A program made the translations under genes and the position numbers. Below are positions 58,682-64,000 of a DNA stretch of 64,000 bases, piece by piece; the stretch's first letter is position 1, and the number at the start of each line of letters is the position of its first letter. The stretch comes from Planctomycetaceae bacterium (GTDB taxonomy: Bacteria; Planctomycetota; Planctomycetia; Planctomycetales; Planctomycetaceae). The stretch lies in the NCBI GenBank assembly GCA_021732785.1, contig JAKFUG010000027.1, positions 62,001 to 126,000 of the forward strand, in the 5' to 3' direction. Below the pieces are notes generated by a model. That model did not search any database. It worked only from the letters and a program-made list of their open reading frames with translations, and was not told where the DNA came from.

Positions 58682-58696
58682 CGGCTACCGCCTTGC
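58682..58696 (+). promoter_or_regulatory. Candidate -24/-12 (sigma-54) promoter before amt
   Basis: CGGCTACCGCCTTGC has the invariant GG (58683-58684) and GC (58695-58696) with ten bases between, and TTGC at -12. Outside these it matches the consensus poorly (7 of 11). It lies 50 nt before the amt ATG. A single such match in GC-rich DNA is weak evidence. Confidence 0.35.
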
Positions 58697-58746
58697 GGCA
58701 CAATAGGTCCACTCATCTTGCCGCAACATCTTCAGGGCCGATTGCA

Positions 58747-60126
58747 ATGTCGTTTTGGAAGTGGAGTGTTTGTACCATCATCGCCTTCATGGCGTTCACA
58801 ACAACGCTGGATGCAGAAGACTCCGTCGCAACAGCCGCCCCGGCCGTATTTCAAGCGGCCGACATCGCGTGGATGCTGACATCGACCACGCTGGTGTTGA
58901 TGATGACGGCACCGGGACTGGCGCTCTTCTACGGTGGCCTGGTTCGCAAGAAAAACATCCTGAGCGTGATGATGCAATGTATCTCGCTGATGGGTCTCAT
59001 GTCGCTGATCTGGGCGTTCTACGGTTATTCGCTTTGTTTCAGTGGCGACCTCGGCGGACTCGGAATCATCGGCGATTTCAGCCATGTGGGCATGCTCGGC
59101 GTGACCTCCACCTGGGACGGCACACAACAGATCATTCCCGCACAGGCCGGCACCGGCATCCCGAAACTGCTCCATTTTGCCTTTCAGATGATGTTCTTCA
59201 TCATCACGCCGGCGCTCATTTGCGGGGCCTTCGCCGAACGCATGAAGTTTTCGTCGATGCTGCTCTTCTCGGCTTTGTGGGGAACCTTCGTCTATTGTCC
59301 GGTCGCTCATTGGGTTTGGTCGGACGCTGGGTGGTGTTCCGAATTCAATCCCCAGTCGGCATATCGTGCGTTCGATTTTGCCGGGGGCACGGTCATTCAT
59401 ATTACGTCGGGTTTCTCGGCTTTGATCTGTTCGCTGTTACTCGGCCGTCGACTCGGTTTCCGACAGGAGCCGATGCCCCCACACAATTTGACGTACACGG
59501 CTGTCGGCGCGGCAATGTTGTGGGTCGGATGGTTCGGATTCAATGCCGGCAGTGCCGGTTCAGCGAGCTTTCTCGCGGTGAACGCGTTGGTGGCGACGCA
59601 TCTCGCGGCCTCCACGGGCTGCATTGCGTGGGCCGTGGCCGAATGGGTGGTGCGGGGAACGCCAAGCGTCCTGGGGGCTTGTTCGGGGGCGGTCGCCGGT
59701 TTGGTGTGTGTCACCCCGGCGAGCGGTTCCGCTACGCCGCTGGGTGGGGCATTGATGGGCATCGCCGCGGGACTGGGATGTTTCTACGCCTGCACCACGT
59801 TGAAAAACCGCTTCGCTTACGATGACACTTTGGACGCTTTCGGTGTTCACGGGATCGGCGGATTGATTGGCGCGTTGCTGACCGGCGTTTTCGCCACCCG
59901 TGCTGTGACGGGAAAACCCGAGGCCGCGGGCTTACTCGACGGCAATGCCGCGCAAGTCGTGAACCAGGCGGTGGCCGCCGGGGCCGCGATTCTTTGGGCT
60001 GTGATTGCCACAATTGTGATCCTGAAGGTGGTCGATGCTTCGTTCGGCTTGCGCGTCTCCCAAGCCGGCGAATTGCAGGGACTCGATATCAGCCAGCACG
60101 GTGAAGAGGGTTACATCTTTCATTAG
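58747..60126 (+). CDS. amt: Ammonium transporter
   Basis: The ATG at 58747, with CAGGG 9 nt upstream, gives 459 residues. A signal peptide (VCTIIAFMAFTTTLDAED) is followed by about eleven membrane helices. Family motifs are DIAWMLTSTTLVLMMTAPGLALFYGGLVRKKN, and the twin pore histidines in CPVAHWVW and DAFGVHGIGG. It carries ammonium into the cell and is a usual target of PII proteins, which are encoded just downstream. It starts the nitrogen module amt-activator-PII-PII-PII-glnD. The gap to the activator gene is 8 nt, indicating one operon. Confidence 0.96.
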   Translation: MSFWKWSVCTIIAFMAFTTTLDAEDSVATAAPAVFQAADIAWMLTSTTLVLMMTAPGLALFYGGLVRKKNILSVMMQCISLMGLMSLIWAFYGYSLCFSGDLGGLGIIGDFSHVGMLGVTSTWDGTQQIIPAQAGTGIPKLLHFAFQMMFFIITPALICGAFAERMKFSSMLLFSALWGTFVYCPVAHWVWSDAGWCSEFNPQSAYRAFDFAGGTVIHITSGFSALICSLLLGRRLGFRQEPMPPHNLTYTAVGAAMLWVGWFGFNAGSAGSASFLAVNALVATHLAASTGCIAWAVAEWVVRGTPSVLGACSGAVAGLVCVTPASGSATPLGGALMGIAAGLGCFYACTTLKNRFAYDDTLDAFGVHGIGGLIGALLTGVFATRAVTGKPEAAGLLDGNAAQVVNQAVAAGAAILWAVIATIVILKVVDASFGLRVSQAGELQGLDISQHGEEGYIFH

Positions 60127-60134
60127 GATGTCGT

Positions 60135-61157
60135 GTGGACGGTGGTGACGAGACACGGGGTATACCGCTCCCCCGACCATCTGCCGATTTCGTCGGCAGC
60201 GGCCCGGCCATGCGGAAAGTCTTCAACCTCATCGAGCAAGTCGCCACGACTGATGTCGACGTGCTGATTTTGGGCGATACCGGTACGGGAAAGGAACTCG
60301 TGGCGCGGTCCGTTCACGATCGTAGCCGACGATCCAACGAGCCCTTTGTCGCGGTGGATTCTGGAGCCATTCCCGAGAACCTGCTGGAAAGCGAGTTTTT
60401 CGGCCATGAACGCGGGGCCTTCACCGGTGCGGATGCCCGTCGGATCGGGCTGCTGGAACATGCGAACGGCGGCACGTTTTTCCTCGACGAAGTGGGCGAA
60501 TTGCCGCTGTTGTTGCAGGCGAAGCTGCTGCGGACATTGCAGGAACGGAAACTGCGCCGTGTGGGCGGCCGTGAGGAAATCGCGATCGATGTCCGGGTGA
60601 TTGCGGCCACGGGTCGGAATCTCGAACAGATGATCCGCGAAAAGACGTTTCGCGAAGATTTGTTCTACCGCATCAACGTCGTCCGCATTGATCTTCCCCC
60701 GCTGCGCGCCCGGGGCGACGATCTCGGCCTATTGATCGAGCACTTCGCCTCGCGTTACAGCCGCGAGATGGGCAAGGCGGTGGTTGGGATCACTCCGGAA
60801 GCGTATCAGGTCCTCGCGCATTATCGCTGGCCGGGAAATGTGCGCGAGTTGCAGAATGTCATCCGGCGCGGAATTGCCCTCACGCGCGGTTCGATGATTT
60901 CCATTGACGATCTGCCCGACGACATTGTGTCGAGCGCGGGGCTGTCCGAAGCCAGTTCGTCAGCCAACGGGGCGACATCGGGATTCTTCGCGGAGCGCGA
61001 TCGCTTCGTCCTCAAATTCGAACGGGATTACCTGAGCAGCCTGCTGCGGAAACATCAGGGCAACGTCAAATCCGCCGCGATCGAAGCGGAGTTGCCGCGC
61101 GGAACGTTGTATCGCCTGATGAAGAACCACGGTCTGGACGGCGATCAGTTTCGGTAG
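60135..61157 (+). CDS. Sigma-54 dependent activator without receiver domain
   Basis: The GTG at 60135 has AGGA 6 nt upstream. The 340-residue protein goes straight into the AAA+ domain: Walker A LGDTGTGKELVARSVH, GAFTGA loop, Walker B FFLDEVGELPL, FREDLFYRINVVRI. A C-terminal Fis-type helix-turn-helix (NVKSAAIEAELPRGTLYRLMKNHGL) binds DNA. It lacks any sensory N-terminal domain, so control must come from a partner protein, possibly PII, or from transcription level. The position right after amt suggests it drives nitrogen-response promoters. Confidence 0.92.
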   Translation: MDGGDETRGIPLPRPSADFVGSGPAMRKVFNLIEQVATTDVDVLILGDTGTGKELVARSVHDRSRRSNEPFVAVDSGAIPENLLESEFFGHERGAFTGADARRIGLLEHANGGTFFLDEVGELPLLLQAKLLRTLQERKLRRVGGREEIAIDVRVIAATGRNLEQMIREKTFREDLFYRINVVRIDLPPLRARGDDLGLLIEHFASRYSREMGKAVVGITPEAYQVLAHYRWPGNVRELQNVIRRGIALTRGSMISIDDLPDDIVSSAGLSEASSSANGATSGFFAERDRFVLKFERDYLSSLLRKHQGNVKSAAIEAELPRGTLYRLMKNHGLDGDQFR

Positions 61158-61490: not shown

Positions 61491-61505
61491 TGGCACGCCG
61501 TTTCC
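61491..61505 (+). promoter_or_regulatory. Candidate sigma-54 promoter before the first PII gene
   Basis: TGGCACGCCGTTTCC matches the consensus TGGCACG-N4-TTGC at 10 of 11 positions. The only mismatch is C for the invariant G at -12 (TTCC). The ATG of the first PII gene is about 60 nt downstream. It is the best-scoring of the three such sites in the window apart from that base. Confidence 0.5.
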
Positions 61506-61565
61506 TTGGTAACTGATGCAACAACAGCCCGCCACCTTGATGATGCAGGATGCAATGGTGCCCCA

Positions 61566-61904
61566 ATGAAGAAAATTGAAGCCATCATTCGGCATCACAA
61601 ACTCGACGATGTGAAGAACGCTCTGGCCACCATCGGTGTCCAGGGAATGACGGTCACGGAAGTGCGAGGAATGGGTCGCGCGGGACAAGTCATCGAATCG
61701 TATCGTGGCCAGGTTTACTCCGTCGATCTCACGCCGCGGATGCTGATCGAATTAGTCGTCAGCGATGAAGCGTGTCCACAAATCATCCAGACTGTCATGA
61801 TTGCAGCCCGGACGGGACAAGTGGGTGATGGACGCATTCTTGTGACCAGCATCGAAGATGTGATTCGCGTCCGCACGGGTGAAACCGGTGTGGAAGCGTT
61901 GTAA
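61566..61904 (+). CDS. PII signal protein, divergent paralogue 1
   Basis: This 112-residue PII protein keeps Tyr51 (GQVYSVD), the site uridylylated by GlnD, plus the ATP-binding region (TGQVGDGRILV) and Arg101/Arg103. The T-loop differs from the usual GRQKGHxE: Gln39 is Ala, Lys40-Gly41-His42 become Gly-Gln-Val, and Lys58 is Arg (LTPRM instead of FLPKV). Gln39 and Lys58 bind Mg-ATP and 2-oxoglutarate in PII proteins, so this copy probably senses poorly or not at all. It is first of three tandem PII genes. Confidence 0.93.
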   Translation: MKKIEAIIRHHKLDDVKNALATIGVQGMTVTEVRGMGRAGQVIESYRGQVYSVDLTPRMLIELVVSDEACPQIIQTVMIAARTGQVGDGRILVTSIEDVIRVRTGETGVEAL

Positions 61905-62333
<429 letters not shown>

Positions 62334-62787: not shown

Positions 62788-62889
62788 TTTACTGTGATCG
62801 CTGGCCGGTGCGCTCGCCGGCCGACGCGCACCCGTCGCACCACACCATCATCTTGACCGGCAATTATGTCCCTGGTGCGACAGGAACAG

Positions 62890-62925
62890 CAATCCGCGCA
62901 GCGCTCCGCGGATTGTTGCGTTTTT
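62890..62925 (+). terminator. Rho-independent terminator between the PII cluster and glnD
   Basis: CAATCCGCG (62890-62898) pairs with CGCGGATTG (62907-62915), 9 bp with an 8-nt loop, followed by TTGCGTTTTT (62916-62925). It ends the PII mRNA and may attenuate read-through into glnD, which starts 55 nt later. Confidence 0.8.
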
Positions 62926-62979: not shown

Positions 62980-64000
62980 ATGACGGAGACGCCGGGCGGA
63001 CTCCCCGAAGATAGCGCCGCACGGATCGCTCGCTTGCGTCAACACGTTGACGCAATGCGCGAAACCGTCCGCAAACGGCTCGATCAGAACAGCACCGGAA
63101 TTCAAGCATCGGCCGGTCTCGCACAGGCCACCGAAGAATTTTTGATTGATCGGTGGAACAAAGCGGTCGACCGGCATGCCGTCAATTTACGCGGTGATCT
63201 CGAACGATCGGGTGCCCTGATTTTTGTCGGTGGTTCGGGCCGCGGCGATGTCGCCCCCTACTCCGATGTCGACTTACTGTTCCTTCATGCTGCGGATAGT
63301 GCCGCCCCGTTTGAAACATGCGTGGCGCAGGTCGTCCGCGATTGCTGGGACGCCGGGCTGAAGTTGGGACACAGTATTCGCACGCCGCAGGATCTCCTGC
63401 GCACCGCGAAAGCCGATCCGCAGTTTGCCACCACGCTGGTCGAAGCCCGGCGCATCTGGGGATCCAGCGAACTCGTCGATCGCACGCTGCGGCAATATCA
63501 AAACTCCGTTTTGAAAGGGCGGCGGCGACAGTTCATTGATGCGTGTATTGCCGAACGCGATAAAGAACGTGTTGCCCACGGCGCGACCGCACAGCAACTC
63601 GAACCCGATGTGAAACGTTCGCTCGGCGGACTGCGCGACCTGCATTTGATCCGCTGGATTGGTGCCGCCCGCTATGGCACCAGCAACATCGATTCTTTGA
63701 AGCTGCAAGGGGCGTTAACCCCCGCCGATGCGCTGCGGCTAACGCTTGCTCACGAGTACATCACGGCGGTGCGAATCCGTCTGCATCTCGCGGCCGGTCG
63801 TCCCCAGGATGTACTGACGCGGGACGATCAATTGCGCATCGCCGCACAACGCGGCATCCCCGGCACTGCGGGACAACGACCCGTCGAGCGCTTCATGCAG
63901 GAATACTTCCAGCACTCGATGGCGATTGCGGAAATTACTGCGCGGTTCGTGCAGAATCATCGTCAGCAACCCGTTGCGCAGCGTCTTTACCACTTCGTGA
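62980..64000 (+). CDS. glnD: Bifunctional uridylyltransferase/uridylyl-removing enzyme (3' end cut)
   Basis: The ATG at 62980, with AGGA 10 nt upstream, opens a frame of 340 codons that runs off the right edge. The N-terminal nucleotidyltransferase motif is GGSGRGDVAPYSDVDLLFLH, with the two metal-binding Asp. The sequence continues into KRSLGGLRDLHLIRW, the GlnD-type linker. GlnD adds UMP to Tyr51 of PII under nitrogen limitation and removes it when glutamine is high. Its position right after three PII genes makes it their modifying enzyme. The HD and ACT domains are beyond the window. Confidence 0.95.
   Translation, partial: MTETPGGLPEDSAARIARLRQHVDAMRETVRKRLDQNSTGIQASAGLAQATEEFLIDRWNKAVDRHAVNLRGDLERSGALIFVGGSGRGDVAPYSDVDLLFLHAADSAAPFETCVAQVVRDCWDAGLKLGHSIRTPQDLLRTAKADPQFATTLVEARRIWGSSELVDRTLRQYQNSVLKGRRRQFIDACIAERDKERVAHGATAQQLEPDVKRSLGGLRDLHLIRWIGAARYGTSNIDSLKLQGALTPADALRLTLAHEYITAVRIRLHLAAGRPQDVLTRDDQLRIAAQRGIPGTAGQRPVERFMQEYFQHSMAIAEITARFVQNHRQQPVAQRLYHFV

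Follow-up and report, generated by a model that had tools for sequence, protein, structure and literature searches.

Organization of the locus

The window analysed here, a 64 kb stretch of a 6.69 Mb Planctomycetaceae genome (G000), carries on its forward strand the gene order amtB, sigma-54 activator, PII-X, PII-2, PII-3 and glnD (Table 1), amtB, the activator gene and glnD forming the neighbourhood of PII-X. A search of the whole genome recovers these three PII genes only. The full-length GlnD carries HD and ACT domains and, given that GlnE, a second Amt and sigma-54 are encoded elsewhere in G000, a GlnD-PII-GlnE cascade resembling that of E. coli is plausible.

Table 1. Features of the PII-X locus, numbered from the first nucleotide of the window
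Feature	Position	Strand	Description
amtB, ammonium transporter, candidate T-loop target	58693..60126	+	TIGR00836 414 bits; PF00909
Sigma-54 activator, AAA+ and Fis-type HTH, without receiver domain	60135..61157	+	PF00158, PF25601, weak PF02954
Sigma-54-type promoter-like element TGGCACGCCGTTTCCT	61491..61506	+	75 bases 5′ of the PII-X ATG
PII-X, divergent PII paralogue	61566..61904	+	112 aa; first of three tandem PII genes
PII-2, canonical effector-site residues	61995..62333	+	profile match, alignment
PII-3, canonical effector-site residues	62449..62787	+	profile match, alignment
Terminator-like hairpin between PII-3 and glnD	62887..62918	+	12 pairs, T-rich tail
glnD, PII nucleotidyltransferase	62980..64000, continues beyond window end	+	893 aa full-length in genome

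Within the window, TGGCACGN4TTNCW matches the promoter-like element alone, against 0.04 matches expected. Its −12 GC dinucleotide is imperfect and reads CC. Similar elements (9–11 of 12 positions) precede PII-X in G002, G001, G026, G109 and G115, and they also precede PII-2 in a number of genomes where the activator is present and PII-X is not. A purine-rich ribosome-binding sequence stands before PII-2 (GGAAAGGG, 61980–61995) and is absent or weak before PII-X (61550–61566), for which reason PII-X may be made in smaller amounts than PII-2. The terminator-like hairpin before glnD is a strong one, so that transcripts of the PII genes may only in part include glnD; terminator-like sites were found 8 times as against 3.5 expected. 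In the window, G109 and G115, the activator beside amtB is devoid of a receiver domain, and its orthologue in G001, a genome of the same genus as G000, retains one (L154:9061-10464; PF00072, 50 bits).

PII-X has the PII fold and an altered effector site

PII proteins are sensors of 2-oxoglutarate (2-OG) and ATP. PII-X matches the PII profile PF00543 with 94.7 bits (cut-off 25) over profile positions 1–102 of 102, and its AlphaFold2 monomer model displays the ferredoxin-like PII fold (pLDDT 88, the T-loop being less certain). A Foldseek search with this model returns PII structures (E 1e-14), the best matches including GlnZ (4CO0), PII (3N5B) and the E. coli GlnK-AmtB complex (2NS1). The whole-protein profile match and the predicted fold with its T-, B- and C-loops place PII-X in the PII superfamily. 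NCBIfam equivalogs are uninformative in this respect, as the canonical PII-2 and PII-3 also score below their cut-offs.

PII-X aligns to solved PII proteins without gaps. The original prediction was that the first of the three PII proteins has lost Gln39 and Lys58 and has a changed 40–42 segment but keeps Tyr51; the alignment agrees, with Q39A, K40G, G41Q, H42V and K58R replaced and T29, E44, Y46, R47, Y51, R101 and R103 kept. PII-2 and PII-3 retain Gln39 and Lys58, as was also proposed, together with Lys/Arg40, Gly41 and His42. The change in the 40–42 segment is real, although weaker as an argument than claimed, the characterised GlnK1 (7P4V) reading GIQGGIVE there. Three further substitutions (K90R, F92L and I102V) had gone unmentioned. 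In place of the canonical pairs Gln39 and Lys58 on the one hand and Lys90 and Phe92 on the other, PII-X has Ala39 and Arg58, and Arg90 and Leu92; the canonical contacts to the neighbouring subunit, Thr29, Arg101 and Arg103, are present. So are the features of a GlnD target, namely Tyr51 within an intact T-loop tip and a GlnD gene nearby, and the retention of Tyr51 may equally be explained by AmtB docking.

Gln39 is found in 168, Lys58 in 168 and Lys90 in 166 of 172 distinct PII proteins, and the only ones among them that lack all three are three copies from the window's genus. A PII protein from a Polyangiaceae MAG (L053:5001-5336) reads GFGRTGGKKE and has Thr39 with Lys58 and Lys90 kept; by its sequence, Gln39 was lost there independently, in a lineage other than planctomycetes.

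PII-X copies in the family

Relatives were sought by a profile search of 170 genomes of the family and by two pattern screens for PII proteins with a non-lysine codon 90. Copies of the PII-X type occur in seven of the 170 genomes, spread over five genera (G000, G001, G002, G026, G109, G115 and G015), a number that is a lower bound as Asn90 copies and assembly gaps escape the screens. The remaining pattern-screen matches do not read as PII. Beyond the family, a screen of 398 genomes of the class with one of the two pattern forms detected no further PII-X, the non-family matches not reading as PII. An alignment with characterised PII proteins and a tree, suggested as a check in the original prediction, confirmed the substitutions and placed the seven copies on one side of a branch (support 93/93, 92% of bootstrap trees), in a tree limited by long branches and few columns (112).

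Six of the seven copies lie directly 5′ of a canonical PII-2, followed by PII-3, which is missing only in G115, and glnD. The order in G015 differs (PII-2, PII-X, glnD) and a separate origin of this copy is therefore possible. All seven reading frames are intact and no disrupted copies were seen. Most genera of the family have no PII-X copy, so that any tuning role would be dispensable. Strict coupling between PII-X and the activator is ruled out: 11 genomes of the family have the activator without a detected PII-X, and the copies of G026 and G015 have no adjacent activator.

Substitutions cluster in one half of the shared pocket

The comparison covered 58 near-invariant columns and set the seven copies against 180 canonical sequences, contacts being assigned from Mg-ATP/2-OG structures (PMC8395244). 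In the columns of a subunit's own half-site (38, 39, 41, 58, 87, 88, 90 and 92) a mean of 4.0 of the 7 rows differ, compared with 0.75 in the columns that a subunit contributes to the site of its neighbour (29, 64, 101 and 103) and 1.0 in all other near-invariant columns. The enrichment in the own half-site has a Fisher p value of 0.0025, which is optimistic as the compared sequences are related. Lys90 is lost in all seven copies (R, C, V or I) and so is Phe92 (L, A, M or V), whereas Lys58 is lost in five, each time to Arg, and Gln39 in three. The loss of Gln39 is confined to the window's genus and is thereby ruled out as a hallmark of the group. Within the own half-site, the Gly87-Asp88-Gly89 (GDG) loop is kept in seven of seven copies; Arg9 is found in six. 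Thr29, Arg101 and Arg103 are kept throughout, and the T-loop tip is unchanged in all seven copies at columns 44, 46, 47, 48, 51, 54 and 57, which include Glu44, Tyr46, Arg47, Gly48 and Tyr51. The original prediction confined the defect to 2-OG contacts; this view is not borne out, as the nucleotide contacts Lys90 and Phe92 are lost in every copy, and the pattern of substitutions points to an effect on the entire nucleotide pocket.

Selection on PII-X

Between G000 and G002, PII-X shows dN of 0.062 and dS of 1.36 (dN/dS 0.046), and the corresponding dN/dS values are 0.008 for PII-2, 0.021 for PII-3 and 0.066 for glnD. Comparison of PII-X with more distant relatives gives dN/dS of 0.14–0.26, at dS near saturation. 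Its identity to the G001 copy is 58%, versus 87–93% for PII-2 and PII-3, and dN is 0.31 for PII-X versus 0.08 and 0.04 for PII-2 and PII-3. PII-X evolves faster than its PII neighbours, yet is under purifying selection. A pseudogene or an assembly error is ruled out by intact orthologues in independent assemblies and by dN/dS below 0.3. PII-2 and PII-3 have a dS of ∼0.46 against G002, one-third of the 1.3–1.5 calculated for PII-X, amtB, the activator and glnD, which suggests strong codon- or RNA-level constraint on the canonical copies or their higher expression.

The faster protein change, the patchy occurrence (7/170 genomes) and the weak ribosome-binding sequence would be expected of a redundant duplicate under relaxed selection, whose function decays gradually and which has been lost in most lineages. 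We hold this to be quite improbable, as disrupted copies are missing from the genomes searched and dN/dS values of 0.05–0.26 are far below 1 and at about the level of glnD. The invariance of the T-loop tip, the clustering of substitutions in a single functional half-site and the position of PII-X as first gene behind a conserved promoter-like element also speak against decay.

Likely consequences for effector binding

In PII structures, Gln39 is a side-chain ligand of Mg, the carboxylate of 2-OG is bound by Arg9 together with Lys58, a phosphate is paired with Lys90 and the adenine is flanked by Phe92, while residues that contact ligands through their main chain vary (PMC8395244). The part assigned in advance to Gln39 and Lys58 in holding Mg-ATP and 2-OG agrees with these contacts. 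In Synechococcus PII, either of the replacements K58N and K58M does away with 2-OG binding, and ADP binding is impaired in K58N (PMC6908673). PII-X of the window's genus cannot make the contacts described. It is therefore likely, and we are fairly confident of this, that its 2-OG sensing has been abolished or much weakened; nucleotide binding would be altered as well. The proposed unresponsiveness to 2-OG gains from the K58N/K58M precedent and the Mg role of Gln39, but its completeness is less secure, as Arg is not a neutral replacement of Lys58 and, with Arg9, might still bind a carboxylate. Weak nucleotide binding may also persist, given the conserved GDG loop.

Retained charges might also point to a pocket of changed specificity, in which Arg58, Arg9, Arg101, Arg103 and the GDG loop would bind another nucleotide or anion. 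K58R preserves the charge in five copies, Arg9 is present in 6/7 and the GDG loop, Arg101 and Arg103 in 7/7, and PII-like relatives with other ligands are known, PstA binding c-di-AMP (PMC4316997). Positions 90 and 92, however, vary freely from lineage to lineage (R, C, V, I and L, A, M, V), as expected of a lost constraint rather than of a shared new specificity, and we give this explanation little credence.

Homotrimers or mixed trimers

PII-X could act as a homotrimer responding neither to 2-OG nor to adenylate charge, serving as a constitutive blocker of AmtB or as partner of the sigma-54 activator, with any switching left to GlnD and Tyr51. The T-loop tip with Tyr51 preserved in 7/7 copies and the adjacency of amtB, the activator gene and glnD are in line with such a role, and Archaeoglobus GlnK2 provides a precedent for a 2-OG-insensitive PII protein (PMC3198391). 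Genera with the activator and genera with PII-X overlap in 3/5 cases (hypergeometric 0.016, kinship being ignored), but the 11 activator-bearing genomes where PII-X was not found weaken this association. Two biochemical points also speak against a homotrimer of this kind. The transporter-competent ADP state rests on a bond between Gln39 and Lys58 (PMC3198391), which is impossible with Ala39. With purified Rhodospirillum proteins, efficient modification by GlnD requires ATP and 2-OG, 2-OG acting via PII (PMC3480911); the same requirement leaves the original proposal of a protein uridylylated yet unresponsive to 2-OG weak in the form given. A homotrimeric function therefore appears unlikely to us.

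The data fit best with mixed trimers, the neighbour-facing half-site of PII-X being intact. PII-X would share expression from the sigma-54-type promoter with PII-2 and PII-3 and would assemble with them. Since its own half of the Mg-ATP/2-OG pocket is altered (38–42, 58, 90 and 92) and its T-loop tip and lent half-site are preserved, each PII-X subunit would take away one effector site, yet would still present a T-loop to AmtB, GlnD and GlnE. Heterotrimers of E. coli GlnB and GlnK are on record, as cited in PMC5448240. A mixed trimer would also sidestep the obstacle to GlnD modification, because PII-X would complete the pockets of its neighbours and, although lacking a functional pocket itself, would bring in a T-loop. 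The neighbour-facing residues could, on the other hand, be kept merely for fold stability, and that PII-X is a selected, sensor-dead subunit of mixed trimers with PII-2 and PII-3 is a tentative proposal, for which the case stands slightly short of even. Changing the share of PII-X would be expected to shift the sensitivity, cooperativity and minimum activity of 2-OG and energy sensing. The more specific notion of a ‘dominant tuner', whereby the ratio of PII-X to PII-2 and PII-3 genetically sets how many sensor sites of a mixed trimer are live, is possible, though we lean against it.

Comparison with known PII systems

PII-X resembles canonical GlnB/GlnK proteins (E. coli, A. brasilense GlnZ, Synechococcus PII) in its length of 112 residues, PII fold, T-loop tip and Tyr51, and shares with them Arg101, Arg103, the GDG loop and amtB and glnD as neighbours; it differs in the replacement of Gln39, Gly41, His42, Lys58, Lys90 and Phe92, which are near-invariant in the 180 canonical sequences. 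Like GlnK2 of Archaeoglobus fulgidus, a PII paralogue without 2-OG binding that exists beside a 2-OG-binding paralogue (PMC3198391), PII-X is by its sequence a probably 2-OG-deficient paralogue beside canonical ones. However, GlnK2 has almost the same pocket residues as the 2-OG-binding GlnK3 and still binds ATP and ADP (PMC3198391), whereas the liganding residues themselves are changed in PII-X, nucleotide contacts included, and its gene belongs to a cluster of three tandem PII genes with glnD. The actinobacterial amtB-glnK-glnD operon likewise clusters an ammonium transporter, PII and GlnD (PMC4285133), but the window has three PII genes, one of them seemingly sensor-deficient, and a sigma-54 activator gene between amtB and the PII genes. 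Lys58 is lost in PII-X as it is in the Synechococcus variants lacking 2-OG binding (PMC6908673); those replacements are engineered and uncharged, while Arg58 is natural and accompanied by changes at 39, 41, 90 and 92.

Insensitivity of a PII protein to 2-OG is not new in itself, as Archaeoglobus GlnK2 illustrates. What seems new is a selected clade, located in PII gene clusters linked to glnD, whose members have changes in one half of the shared pocket and conservation in the other; our search of the open-access literature found no described planctomycete PII paralogue of this kind. PII-X bears on the open question of what several PII paralogues per genome mean, and it offers a natural means of testing how the sites of a trimer communicate and whether mixed trimers matter in cells. 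It is also a caution that the annotation ‘2-OG sensor’ should not be given to PII genes across the board.
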